Of a stretch of 64,000 nt of DNA, positions 13,991 through 24,820 are shown one piece after another. The stretch comes from Gammaproteobacteria bacterium. Lineage in GTDB: Bacteria; Pseudomonadota; Gammaproteobacteria; Pseudomonadales; Halieaceae. The position numbers and the translations under genes were made by a program. Under the pieces are notes generated by a model. The model was not told the DNA's origin and did not search any database. It was given only the letters and a program-made list of their open reading frames with translations. How positions within the stretch are numbered: the stretch's first letter is position 1; each line of letters opens with the position of its first letter. The DNA is taken from contig JAUIMF010000009.1 in assembly GCA_030433415.1 (NCBI GenBank), positions 1 through 64,000 on the forward strand, given 5' to 3'.

Positions 13991-15091
13991 CTATGTGTCC
14001 GAAAGCTCATCCGAAACTTTCTCCAAGAACGGCACCAACCGATACCCATCAATCACTCGCTGCGACGGCCGGTAGTGTCGCACCGTGACGTTAAACACCC
14101 CCGACGCATTCTCGATGGGAATCCGGTTTGGCGCGCCCGCCGCACACCCAAGACTCACGGTATAGGTTCCATCCGCATTCGTCGTGGCAAGGTCACTGTT
14201 CACGTTGGCGATGTCGTTGAACATGAAACCCTGCCGGTCGTACACGGTGAAAGACCAGAAGGCGTCATTCCCCGGGTCTTCAAACGTCGCCTGATAGCAG
14301 CCCTCGGCGGGCTGGTTCGGAGAGAGTTCATAGATGTTGTCACGCACCTGCGCGCCGCCCCAACCGGCGGCTGAAGCAACCTGGTGAATCTCTGGCGTAA
14401 AGTACGCTCGCGATTCATCCGTGGGCGCGGTGAACATACCCATAGACAACGCCTTTGGCCCGGCGGTTTTGAGTAACTCCATACGTTTGGCCTTGAGCGC
14501 CTTCTCTACCGCTACAAACGACTCTCGCTGCACGGGTTCGGCCGAGAACAACGTGTTGCTGCCAGCATCGATACGCATAGACGCCTGGTAGTGCTGCGCC
14601 TCTTGCGGTGAAAAGGTCGCGTCGAGGCGAACGATCACGTACACGTGTGACCCCGTATGCGTCGCCAGCTGGTAGGTACCGCCACCGTAAGACATGGGCT
14701 GCGTACGGTGATCCTCGGTAACAGGCTGCATCGACAGGTACTTGCCCTCAGGAACAGGTGGCAACGTGATCGTAGCGCCCTGCGATACGTCCACCACCAC
14801 CGAGGAATAGTACGAGTCGCGATTCATCCGCACCACAGGCTGGTCATCGGTTGGTGTGAGCTGGGGACGGTGTACAAAACGGTTTGTACCCCCGGCCAGG
14901 GTCTGGGTATTGATCATCTGGCGAGCGGTTTCGGCACGGGGATACGCAGCGGCCGTGACGACCTCACCCGATGCTGAAAAGTACGCGGCGGGCGACGTTA
15001 CGGGTTCTGCCTGCAGCGTCCACGAACCTGCCAACAGAACAACACCGATAAAACCGCGACGGGTGACTGGCAACGATCTGGGAATAGGCAT
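13991..15091 (-). CDS. DUF1254/DUF1214 domain protein, Tat signal
   Basis: 366 residues. N-terminus TRRGFIGVVLLAGSWTLQA is a twin-arginine-type signal. The first half (about 50-180) matches DUF1254 style, the C-terminal part (DAFWSFTVYDRQGFMFND ... NADGTYTVSLGC) matches DUF1214. Proteins of this architecture are periplasmic and of unknown biochemistry. It stands alone, 56 bp from the penicillin acylase gene on the same strand. Confidence 0.85.
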   Translation of the reverse strand: MPIPRSLPVTRRGFIGVVLLAGSWTLQAEPVTSPAAYFSASGEVVTAAAYPRAETARQMINTQTLAGGTNRFVHRPQLTPTDDQPVVRMNRDSYYSSVVVDVSQGATITLPPVPEGKYLSMQPVTEDHRTQPMSYGGGTYQLATHTGSHVYVIVRLDATFSPQEAQHYQASMRIDAGSNTLFSAEPVQRESFVAVEKALKAKRMELLKTAGPKALSMGMFTAPTDESRAYFTPEIHQVASAAGWGGAQVRDNIYELSPNQPAEGCYQATFEDPGNDAFWSFTVYDRQGFMFNDIANVNSDLATTNADGTYTVSLGCAAGAPNRIPIENASGVFNVTVRHYRPSQRVIDGYRLVPFLEKVSDELSDT

Positions 15092-21492: not shown

Positions 21493-22989
21493 TCAATTGC
21501 TGACCTGCAGCATGTACTCGGCGACGGCCAGTCGCACTTCTTCAGACAGATAGTTCTGCGGCGGCATCTCGGGATAATCCTCACGCTTCTTGATCGGCGC
21601 CGCGATGTACTCTGCCAGGCCTTTGGGGTTATCCATGTACAACGCCTGAATGACCTGCACGGGCGGCCCAATCATGCGACCGGTATAGGTATGACAGCCG
21701 GTGCAGATACCGAGATAGGTAATCTTGCCCTGCTCGGACTGGTCGATCTCCCGCGCGGCAACGGGCTCTGGCAGCAGGTAGGTATCGATGGCGTCTGTGT
21801 TGTCAAAGTCACAGTCCGCAAAATCCTTTACGCCCACTACAACATAGCGGTGGCGGTCTGAAATGCAGCCGTCGCGCGCATCACCGGCGCGCACAATGTC
21901 GGGGTTGCCGGTCTTGAACTCGGTGAGCATCAGCGCCTTGACCTCGTCGATGGTGTCAAAGCCGTTGTTCATCATGAAGTTGTTCAGGATCGCGACCTTG
22001 TCGGGAACCGGGTCTGACTCAGGATCGATGGTCACGTTCGACGCATTCTGGTGATCGACCACCAGCACGCCGGCGGTCTTGTTGCCGGTGATGATGTTGT
22101 CGTGGATCACCACCTCGTCCGCCGCCATGATCAGTATGCCGGTGCCCGCGGGAATACCCGACACCGTGGAACCCGGTGCGCCAAAGTTCGCCGTGTTGTT
22201 ATCCACAATAAAGTTGTGGCGGATGATCACGTCGCGCGTCGTCTTGATGGGCAGCCCCGGCGTGATAAACGCGAGAATGCCGCCCGTATTGTTGTGCACG
22301 TAATTGTTTTCGACAATCGCGTGACGGGAGTTCTCGATTTCGATACCGGCCACACTGTCGAACACCTCGTTGTGCGCCACATGCACGTTGTCACTCATGC
22401 CCACGTAGATCGCCGCATCCTCGATCCCCGAGATCACGTTACCTTCAACAATGCCGTTCTGCCCGAGTTGGGGGAATACGCCATAGACCCCGGTATCAAC
22501 GATGAGGTTGTTGCGGATTTCGAAGTTGTTCCCCGCCTGCCCCATGATCGCGTTGCCCTTGTAGTGGGTGATCTTGAGGTTCTCAACCACGATATTATTG
22601 CCGGAGTACAGCACCGCATCATTCAGGCGTCGCTCGCCCTCGAGCGTGGGCCAATTACCCTGCTCGATAACACCGATCAGGCGGATGCCATCTTTGTCGA
22701 TATAAACGGTCTCGATGTAGGTGCCGGGCATCACACGGATCGTATCGCCCGGCTGCGCGGCGTTCACCGCTACCTGGATCGATTCGCCATCCTTCACCAC
22801 GTGCACGGCACCCCCCTCGTACACCGCCGCCGCGCCGCCGGTCGTGACCGTGTCAGCTCTAAAACCGCCCTCGTAACTTGTGTTGCGTGTACCGTCACTG
22901 ATGACGGTTTTGTCGCCCTGACCTCCGATCCAGAGGCCGCCGGCAAATGCTCCTGCTACAAGGACCGTGGCGATAAGTTTGGCGTTCAT
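21493..22989 (-). CDS. Right-handed beta-helix protein fused to a cytochrome c domain
   Basis: 498 residues. Seen: N-terminal hydrophobic anchor or signal (5-24), a parallel beta-helix of the NosD/CASH type over about 75-330 with repeated short turns such as NNIVVENLKITHYKGNA and DNVHVAHNEVFDSVAGIEI, a linker with two extra Cys, then a class I cytochrome c domain with heme site CTGCH at 429-433 and probable distal M475 (YPEMPP). Such a fusion suggests an extracytoplasmic carbohydrate- or polymer-binding scaffold tied to electron transfer. It overlaps the peroxidase gene by 4 bp as the last gene of a three-cytochrome operon. Confidence 0.88.
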   Translation of the reverse strand: MNAKLIATVLVAGAFAGGLWIGGQGDKTVISDGTRNTSYEGGFRADTVTTGGAAAVYEGGAVHVVKDGESIQVAVNAAQPGDTIRVMPGTYIETVYIDKDGIRLIGVIEQGNWPTLEGERRLNDAVLYSGNNIVVENLKITHYKGNAIMGQAGNNFEIRNNLIVDTGVYGVFPQLGQNGIVEGNVISGIEDAAIYVGMSDNVHVAHNEVFDSVAGIEIENSRHAIVENNYVHNNTGGILAFITPGLPIKTTRDVIIRHNFIVDNNTANFGAPGSTVSGIPAGTGILIMAADEVVIHDNIITGNKTAGVLVVDHQNASNVTIDPESDPVPDKVAILNNFMMNNGFDTIDEVKALMLTEFKTGNPDIVRAGDARDGCISDRHRYVVVGVKDFADCDFDNTDAIDTYLLPEPVAAREIDQSEQGKITYLGICTGCHTYTGRMIGPPVQVIQALYMDNPKGLAEYIAAPIKKREDYPEMPPQNYLSEEVRLAVAEYMLQVSN

Positions 22990-24179
22990 GGCGTATCTCC
23001 TGCCTGTGGGGCAGCAGCGAACTGCCCTGCCCTGTGATGGGAATGATTGATGGGGGTAAGCCCCGACGGAACGCGCTCGGGCACGACGGGTTTGAAGCGC
23101 TCGTCGGTCAGCGTGCCCAGGAACGCGACCAGTAGATCGAGCTCATGCTCTGCCAACTGCGGATCCCAGATATGCCAGTGCAATTGCAGTTCGACATTGT
23201 CGGGCACCGCATGACCCCGGCCCCCGTTGTAGAACGCCACGGCATCGCGCAGCGTCGCGAAGCGCCCGGAATGCATATAGGGCGCCGTCTTTGCAATGTT
23301 CCGCAGCGTCGGCACCTTGAACCCACCGCGCAGCTTTGCCTCACCAAAGCTCTGCTGGGCGCCGACATCCAGTGGCAGACCCTCGGGTTCTGGGCTACCG
23401 ATCACAGCGATCTGCTGATTGGTGAACAGGGGTGGCGTATGGCACTCGGCGCAACGGGCAACAAACGAGCGAAACACGTTCAAACCGGCGATTTCGTCGT
23501 CGGTCAGGGCGTCGTGATAGCCGTGGGCGTAATGGTCGTAACGACTGTTGAGAGAAATCAGGGACGCCTCGAAGGCCGCGAGGGCGGTGTACACCATAGG
23601 CAGTTCGATACGCTCAGCGCCGGGGAAGGCCTGGGCAAACAGATCGGCATACGCGGGGCTTCCGCGCAAACTGGTCAGCAGTCCCTGGGGCGTATTGCCC
23701 ATTTCGTCCGGGGCGTAGAGTGGTCCCTGGGCCTGCGCTTCGAGGGAGCTGGCGCGGGCATCCCAGAACAGGCGGCGCAAGAAAGCACTGTTCCACAGCG
23801 TGGGCGCACCGCGGCGCGTCTCGGTACCGGCAATTCCGATACTGCGCCCCAGGCCATCACCAAAGCCTTTGTCCGGATCATGGCAGCTTGCGCAGGACAG
23901 TGTCTGATCGGCCGACAGCAGAGGATCAAAGAACAGGTAACGCCCCAGGTCGATCTGCCGGGCGCTGAAGCCGTCCCGCCGCGGTGGCAGCGCGGTCGTG
24001 GTGCCGCCGACGCCCTGCCCCTGCAGAGAATCGTACTGATCGTAGCGGGTTACCAGGTGGCAGGTGCCGTTATCAAGTTGCTCGAAACCCGGCGGACACT
24101 GAGTCGACAAAACAATGGGCGTCTCGGCGAACCCAGGCACCGGGATCAACGCCAGCGTCAGCAGCAGTCGCGATATCAC
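22986..24179 (-). CDS. Diheme cytochrome c peroxidase / MauG family protein
   Basis: 397-residue periplasmic diheme protein. Signal peptide 1-19; heme sites CASCH at 96-100 and CAECH at 243-247; conserved GAPTLWNSAF and WDARASSLEAQAQGP typical of bacterial cytochrome c peroxidases and MauG-like enzymes. An N-terminal pair of cysteines (QCPPGFEQLDNGTC) is an addition not usual in plain CcpA. Members reduce H2O2 or oxidise protein side chains. Overlaps both neighbours by 4 bp. Confidence 0.92.
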   Translation of the reverse strand: MISRLLLTLALIPVPGFAETPIVLSTQCPPGFEQLDNGTCHLVTRYDQYDSLQGQGVGGTTTALPPRRDGFSARQIDLGRYLFFDPLLSADQTLSCASCHDPDKGFGDGLGRSIGIAGTETRRGAPTLWNSAFLRRLFWDARASSLEAQAQGPLYAPDEMGNTPQGLLTSLRGSPAYADLFAQAFPGAERIELPMVYTALAAFEASLISLNSRYDHYAHGYHDALTDDEIAGLNVFRSFVARCAECHTPPLFTNQQIAVIGSPEPEGLPLDVGAQQSFGEAKLRGGFKVPTLRNIAKTAPYMHSGRFATLRDAVAFYNGGRGHAVPDNVELQLHWHIWDPQLAEHELDLLVAFLGTLTDERFKPVVPERVPSGLTPINHSHHRAGQFAAAPQAGDTP

Positions 24180-24820
24180 GGCGCGACGGTCTCGACACCA
24201 GCCAGTGAAGCCACGTAGGCCAGCACATCGGCAATGGACTGTTTGTCGGTGAGCGTGCCCGCCATCATCGCCATCTGCCGTCCCGGCCGGTCGCCGGGAT
24301 CGGTGCCCCGCAGCCCATTGCGGTAGTGGGTCAACTGGCGGGTGAGGTAAGCCGGGTCCAGACCCGCCAGACGCGGCGCCTTGAGCGCAGGATTCCCCTG
24401 GGCCTGGCCACCGTGACAGGCACCGCAGTTACCGTTGTAAAGGCTCGCACCGCGGCGGGCATCTCCTTGGCCAACCGCCACCGAGGGATTGGGCGGCAGT
24501 GCAGACACCCAGGCGACCACGGTCGCTACCGCCGCATCATCGGCAAGCATTGCGGCAAAGGGGGCCATCTGCGCGCCAAAGCTGTCGCCTTCCACAGCAC
24601 CGCGCTGACCGTTGCGAAACAGCATCAGTTGGCGAGCCAGGTAATCCGCATCCTGCCCTGCCAGTGCAGGCGCCCCCAGCGCGGAGTTACCCCGCGCGTC
24701 TGCACCGTGGCAGGCCACGCAGGGGGCAAAGAGATCGCGGCCGTCCTGTGCCGAACTCGACAGCGGTATTGTCACTAGGCACAGCACGCAGAGTGACAAC
24801 AGTAATTGGCGATGCTCCAT
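24176..24820 (-). CDS. Diheme cytochrome c4-type protein
   Basis: 214 residues from the ATG at 24820 (CAGGAG ten bases upstream; a start at 24850 would add ten residues before the signal peptide). Signal peptide to about 24, then two homologous c4 domains with CVACH (34-38) and CGACH (132-136), each followed by APALAG/APRLAG and LARQL/LTRQL repeats. Likely the electron donor or acceptor of the peroxidase and beta-helix cytochrome downstream; first gene of the operon. Confidence 0.93.
   Translation of the reverse strand: MEHRQLLLSLCVLCLVTIPLSSSAQDGRDLFAPCVACHGADARGNSALGAPALAGQDADYLARQLMLFRNGQRGAVEGDSFGAQMAPFAAMLADDAAVATVVAWVSALPPNPSVAVGQGDARRGASLYNGNCGACHGGQAQGNPALKAPRLAGLDPAYLTRQLTHYRNGLRGTDPGDRPGRQMAMMAGTLTDKQSIADVLAYVASLAGVETVAP

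Follow-up and report, generated by a model that had tools for sequence, protein, structure and literature searches.

The window, the stretch of 64,000 nucleotides analysed here, comes from a draft genome of the Halieaceae (167 contigs, 89.5% complete) and carries three consecutive genes on the minus strand, running from position 24820 to 21493, which encode a c4-like cytochrome, a MauG-like diheme protein and a protein in which a right-handed β-helix is joined to a cytochrome c domain with the heme motif CTGCH. Both gene junctions are overlaps of 4 base pairs (bp), as an earlier note on this DNA had claimed, and the fusion described there is real, since the frame reads through the β-helix into the CTGCH domain with no internal stop. 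The features of the operon are as follows, with lengths in amino acids (aa) and model quality as predicted local distance difference test (pLDDT):

24176–24820, minus strand: c4-like diheme cytochrome c, 214 aa from an ATG; PF00034 in two stretches, 84.8 bits
22986–24179, minus strand: MauG-like diheme enzyme, 397 aa, GTG start, heme motifs CASCH and CAECH; PF03150, 178 bits
23229–23231, minus strand: codon of Tyr317, opposite MauG Tyr294 (axial heme ligand) in the alignment
23172–23180, minus strand: His334-Trp335-His336 (HWH), subfamily-specific motif, in 121/121 distinct members and 0/21 comparators
21493–22989, minus strand: β-helix/cytochrome c fusion, 498 aa; TIGR03805, 177 bits; AlphaFold2 model with mean pLDDT 86
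21955–22806, minus strand: right-handed β-helix part of the fusion, residues 62–345, with conserved Y169, D191, Y195, E217 and E219
21496–21741, minus strand: C-terminal cytochrome c domain of the fusion, residues about 417–498; CTGCH at 429–433, Met475 invariant

This gene arrangement is not due to chance. The fusion matches the NCBIfam model TIGR03805 with 177.1 bits (cut-off 141.5). Within the window's taxonomic family, 140 genomes were scanned with this model; 106 have a match, 101 of them above the cut-off, and the matches fall into two score classes. From the lower class 54 family loci were fetched, the window itself (L001) not being counted among them; L081 was fetched too and excluded, since its β-helix gene lacks a heme motif. 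To these were added 80 named loci, the best of at least 410 relatives, among which are Colwellia, Thalassotalea, Paraglaciecola, Bowmanella, Shewanella, Rheinheimera, Arenicella, Steroidobacter and Povalibacter. As 9 loci are common to both sets, the 134 loci comprise 125 distinct ones, for which pooled counts are given; the clustering of flanking genes, the aldehyde dehydrogenase comparison and the distance correlations used all 134, duplicates included. The MauG-like gene adjoins the β-helix gene in 54/54 family loci and lies directly upstream of it in 78/80 named loci, the remaining two being contig ends (L185, missed by the adjacency filter, was counted as adjacent after inspection). A c4 gene stands beside the operon in 49/54 and 71/80 loci, respectively, and each β-helix protein has exactly one CXXCH (134/134 loci, 125 distinct).

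Across 390 genomes of the order, the β-helix subclass (at least 551 bits) was found in 56 and the MauG-like subfamily (at least 512 bits) in 55. Both genes occur together in 55 of the 390, on the same contig each time, which accounts for 55/55 of the MauG-like and 55/56 of the β-helix genomes; the gap between the two matches is at most 300 bp in 53 of them and measures 339 and 1136 bp in the remaining two genomes. The co-occurrence of homologues, which the earlier note had named as the check on its proposal, is thereby borne out. The sole β-helix genome without a MauG-like partner (G183) is taken to be cut at a contig end, because its match begins at residue 86 and the named locus with an agreeing match, L194, starts at base 1 of a 4599-base contig. 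Among 368 other genomes drawn from the class, β-helix matches above 650 bits were found in 3, and among 397 others drawn from the phylum, matches above 700 bits were found in 6, one of which belongs to another class. This out-of-class locus has an HWH-type MauG-like gene alongside the β-helix gene, and no c4 was found among its reading frames of at least 180 aa. Distance correlations of the β-helix protein with the MauG-like protein (0.79), c4 (0.70), AraC (0.77) and TonB (0.56) were not used as evidence of contact, because gene and species history shape them too.

Some copies of the system differ in layout or score. The genome G014, of the same genus, carries two, L035 (G014:C59:13100-26000) and L034 (G014:C24); the second copy is divergent (148.5 bits) and has the gene order MauG-like, β-helix, c4. 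In L242 (2710-6997 of a divergent copy in G311) a 356-aa protein lies between the MauG-like and β-helix genes, with an integrase-like frame (by eye) just downstream. Under the TIGR03805 cut-off lie the distant subgroup copy L065 (119.8 bits) and the 405-aa β-helix protein without heme motif at L081 (G043:C76; 99.5 bits).

The MauG-like protein has MauG, MbnH and bacterial cytochrome c peroxidase as its relatives of solved structure. Single-sequence and fold comparisons both rank cytochrome c peroxidases first among these, and a profile comparison puts MbnH (6e1c) on a par with them. The C-terminal part aligns best with MauG, with Tyr317 opposite Tyr294 in the printed alignment. Tyr294 of MauG is the second ligand of the six-coordinate heme, and a tyrosine occupies the Tyr317 position in 55/55 aligned subfamily proteins. 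By contrast, bacterial cytochrome c peroxidases use a methionine as the second ligand of the high-potential heme, and a methionine is found at this position in the peroxidase L211, the one further protein of the genome that matches PF03150. With tyrosine at the ligand position, “MauG-like” is thus the better half of the earlier label “MauG-like diheme peroxidase.” Among 20 comparators (L213-L232), which are called no more than MauG-like because the cut-off of the MauG model TIGR03791 was passed by 0/249 genomes of the phylum, the ligand position holds tyrosine in 19 and phenylalanine in one. Furthermore, W139, Q149, P153 and E159, conserved in 53–55 of the 55 proteins, stand at a constant offset of 46 from W93, Q103, P107 and E113 of MauG, a correspondence by spacing and not by printed alignment.

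The kinship with peroxidases, together with donor cytochromes encoded in the same operon, would also fit a peroxide-reducing system, in which electrons pass from c4 through the β-helix heme to the diheme enzyme, periplasmic hydrogen peroxide (H2O2) is reduced, and the β-helix only anchors or localizes the enzyme. This rival has to be taken seriously, since the same chemistry is known from a Tyr-ligated relative: according to one study, the Tyr-ligated peroxidase BthA shows H2O2 turnover once an electron source is supplied, and the ligand environment of the six-coordinate heme, long credited for the difference between MauG and the peroxidases, is yet not the sole determinant of reactivity (PMC6405878). 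The tyrosine of the operon protein thus leaves room for a plain peroxidase. On the other hand, this tyrosine stands where the genome's separate peroxidase L211 has its methionine, and detoxification needs no strict pairing with a β-helix bearing conserved surface-type residues. Peroxide reduction is regarded as rather unlikely to be the role of the operon.

The diheme protein belongs to a distinct subfamily, whose specific residues are W129, H323 and the HWH segment at 334–336. The three histidines H323, H334 and H336 are invariant, and HWH, present in all 121 distinct members (a count that excludes L053, L185, L191 and L194 for a piece of less than 330 aa, an over-extended frame or a contig end), occurs nowhere in any of the 21 comparators. 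The extra N-terminal cysteine pair pointed out in the earlier note, C28 and C40, is present in the window's protein and in 53/55 of the aligned proteins. In a tree of 34 rows, in which MbnH was not included, the 13 sampled members form one branch with support 100/100. A true MauG or a true MbnH is ruled out by the NCBIfam cut-offs, as the protein reaches 184 bits of 443.85 for TIGR03791 and 209.6 of 362.85 for the MbnH model TIGR04039, still its best NCBIfam match. With MauG it shares the diheme fold, the tyrosine at 294 and, by spacing, the counterparts of Q103, P107 and E113, whereas the HWH segment and the N-terminal cysteine pair set it apart; with MbnH it shares a Tyr-type position and a partner gene alongside, whereas the aligned part of 6e1c lacks HWH and the partner here is a β-helix cytochrome. 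Neither methylamine dehydrogenase (PF02975) nor the MbnP partner (TIGR04052) has a match in the window's own genome, where, at 89.5% completeness, the controls were silent as well.

The β-helix protein had been described as of NosD/CASH type, but it is not NosD proper. Pfam finds Beta_helix and NosD (PF05048 at 50 bits, gathering score 23.6), but the NosD subfamily model TIGR04247 gives only 57.3 bits against a cut-off of 300, which rules out NosD as the identity of the helix; the protein belongs to TIGR03805 and, unlike NosD, carries heme. The helix model is closest to the AlgE mannuronan C-5 epimerases (Z about 32, 2.3 Å over 284 residues, about 18% identity), and a NosD structure is also among its fold matches (Z 27.9). 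A fold shared with AlgE or NosD does not give the function, and a sequence search with the helix alone against solved structures returned no match (best E 0.11). The C-terminal cytochrome domain stays under the Pfam cut-offs (PF13442 at 20.9 and PF00034 at 18.0 bits); in phmmer it matches small c cytochromes with a best E of 0.0013, and C429, C432, H433 and M475 are invariant in 55/55 sequences. The N-terminus is a hydrophobic helix with no obvious cleavage site by eye.

When 30 sequences of one TIGR03805 class were compared with 55 of the other, 39 positions proved conserved in both. Y169, D191, Y195, E217 and E219 are among these, and since they are kept in both subclasses, they suggest a ligand site. 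The arrangement of strands in the model would place these residues on neighbouring turns of one sheet, probably the one on which related enzymes bind sugar chains. A resemblance of the E217-x-E219 pair to a calcium site of PL6 lyases was considered and set aside. The helix has no invariant histidine, its best histidine column being filled in 107/125 distinct proteins, whereas the catalytic residue of the AlgE C-5 epimerase is given as His154 in PMC7385640; the best tryptophan column of the whole fusion protein holds tryptophan in 51/125. The first column speaks against AlgE-type catalysis, the second against a cofactor derived from tryptophan. For AlgE Tyr149, Asp152 and Asp178 the profile alignments to possible counterparts are weak and conflicting and leave the helix register unsettled. 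A match to the AlgE4 active site through a common YGxxP stretch was rejected: the profiles place the helices in different registers (probability 6%; the second comparison weak and conflicting), and therefore no residue equivalence with AlgE4 is drawn.

The tryptophan count also bears on a second alternative, by which the two proteins would be a maturation pair. MauG acts on pre-methylamine dehydrogenase to make a protein-derived cofactor, and MbnH likewise oxidises residues of MbnP; the operon enzyme, Tyr-ligated and of the MauG/MbnH type, might in the same way oxidise residues of the β-helix protein itself. This would agree with the one-to-one pairing of the two genes and with the invariant tyrosines Y91, Y169, Y195, Y435 and Y451 of the fusion. 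A Trp-based maturation of the β-helix is unsupported by its best column, and tryptophan of c4 is found in 2/50; a maturation pair is possible, but tyrosine would have to serve, and two of the tyrosines, Y169 and Y195, are kept also in the sister class joined to TIGR03806. Such a pair is accordingly regarded as unlikely.

A third alternative takes up NosD itself, in that the β-helix would bind a metal such as copper, whose redox state the heme proteins would set. The Pfam NosD match and the NosD structure among the fold matches could be read in this way, the invariant histidines 323, 334 and 336 of the MauG-like protein might bind a metal, and MbnH is tied to copper homeostasis in the title of 6e1c. 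Yet the NosD subfamily model lies far under its cut-off, the best helix histidine column is incomplete, and AlgE-type enzymes are the better fold match. Metal handling is the least supported of the readings and quite improbable.

The coupling of such a β-helix to heme is not unprecedented, because members of TIGR03805 are found linked to c-type hemes more than once. In the high-scoring class the β-helix was fused to TIGR03806, the SO2930-family diheme cytochrome, in 2/2 long members scanned (L020, L015), and in L247 the two are neighbouring genes (371 against 313 bits for the partner); by eye these sister-class proteins have lipoprotein-like starts. The 30 class-a loci (L002-L031) served only the gene-neighbour scan, the model scan (three of them) and the class-to-class comparison. 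None of the three operon proteins matches TIGR03806, and there is no match in the window's own genome, where controls were silent too, although the model does score in relatives. The operon and the sister class thus share the β-helix family, the coupling to c-type heme and the 39 highly conserved positions; new here is that one fused heme and a MauG-like enzyme, mostly accompanied by c4, stand in place of the SO2930 partner. The claim that no described pathway has this set therefore holds for the whole and not for its β-helix–heme part: no published description of the three genes was found in the full-text literature searched, as far as titles and the starts of abstracts show and with most subscription papers outside it. 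One paper uses the terms in question for unrelated genes (PMC8756737), another gives the TIGR03805 label to one protein of a Burkholderia cenocepacia exopolysaccharide cluster and nothing further (PMC3584217), and in a third SO_2930 and SO_2931 merely appear in a list, at the periphery of an electron-transfer network of Shewanella (PMC4837345).

The c4-like protein has a signal peptide by eye, two CXXCH motifs and the candidate methionine ligands M85 and M183, conserved in 50/50 and 49/50 sequences, in keeping with the two Met-ligated heme-c domains of a cytochrome c4. No NCBIfam model scores above its cut-off, and therefore “c4-like” is the safe wording. An alternative TTG start is possible 30 bases upstream of the ATG.

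In the window the operon is flanked by a divergent cysK-like gene upstream and a convergent major facilitator superfamily transporter downstream. In relatives, where flanking reading frames were clustered and the clusters named from scanned representatives, a TonB-dependent receptor lies nearby in 52 of the 125 distinct loci and an AraC-type regulator in 42, with either in 66 and both in 28. The regulator combines an N-terminal membrane part (by eye) with an AraC-type DNA-binding domain. Two sampled receptors match a siderophore-receptor model best, with 170.5 and 109.4 bits under its cut-off of 223.5, and one of them is also weakly of copper type (32.7 against 472), which counts further against metal handling. 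The receptor cluster is loose, with a median identity of 35%, and 45 of its members are linked as one subgroup at identities of at least 40%; therefore one common ligand cannot be claimed. Short-chain dehydrogenases/reductases, acyl-CoA dehydrogenases and CoA-transferases, neighbours in 16, 8 and 7 of the distinct loci, look like adjacent catabolic genes. A coupling to aldehyde dehydrogenase, found in 7 loci of two lineages, is not pressed, because the enzymes of the two lineages share only 38–41% identity. A histidine kinase lies downstream of the operon in 11 named loci (including L137:7533-9113), mostly relatives of Colwellia and Thalassotalea, and the one scanned has a CHASE5 sensor; a small protein, bacterial-globin-like in the one case scanned, lies upstream in 8 distinct loci (including L068:11734-12114). 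Elsewhere in the window, at 13991–15091, a DUF1254/DUF1214 protein stands beside an 808-aa reading frame that by eye resembles a penicillin-acylase-type hydrolase.

The most economical account of the operon is an oxidation module in the periplasm, connected to the respiratory chain, in which a Tyr-ligated diheme oxidase would act on a ligand held by the β-helix; it is put forward tentatively, with a confidence that stays short of even. We infer that the proteins are exported, that the β-helix protein is anchored in the membrane and that they form a complex. The MauG-like enzyme, with one Tyr/His-ligated heme and one open heme, would react with peroxide or oxygen to give a high-valent diheme state, which would then oxidise a ligand, either a small molecule or a polymer, bound to the conserved face of the β-helix. 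The heme of the fusion and the diheme c4 may serve as electron carriers between the oxidation site and the respiratory chain, in whichever direction electrons flow, and in many relatives the ligand might enter through the neighbouring TonB receptor under the control of the AraC-type regulator. The account is favoured by the strict pairing of the MauG-like and β-helix genes, the tyrosine opposite MauG Tyr294, the spacing-based counterparts of MauG residues, the helix residues kept in both TIGR03805 classes, the TonB and AraC genes near many loci and the N-terminal hydrophobic helix of the fusion. Several observations weigh against this account. The model of the MauG-like protein is of moderate quality only (pLDDT 76), and Tyr ligation is compatible with H2O2 turnover in BthA. 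A c4 gene was not found beside 5/54 family and 9/80 named operons, at least two of the latter (L191, L194) being without upstream sequence. The window's own operon has no adjoining TonB or AraC genes, and neither was found near 59/125 distinct loci, some of which are short stretches.

A more specific and doubtful proposal is that the operon represents a new class of the MauG family: a Tyr-ligated diheme oxidase with a three-histidine HWH site that would form an obligate pair with an epimerase-like, heme-bearing β-helix and would oxidise either a ligand or polymer taken up through TonB or one of the helix's own tyrosines, with c4 feeding or drawing electrons. If the proposal is true, this would be, as far as known, the first case of a β-helix presenting the target of a diheme oxidase. 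Targets are known, to our knowledge, for few enzymes of the MauG family. The subfamily described here, a single branch of its tree, has a constant partner and is clearly told by its sequence signature, and the set occurs in named strains, e.g., of Thalassotalea, Bowmanella, Paraglaciecola, Steroidobacter and Rheinheimera; therefore the functions of both the subfamily and TIGR03805 are directly testable.

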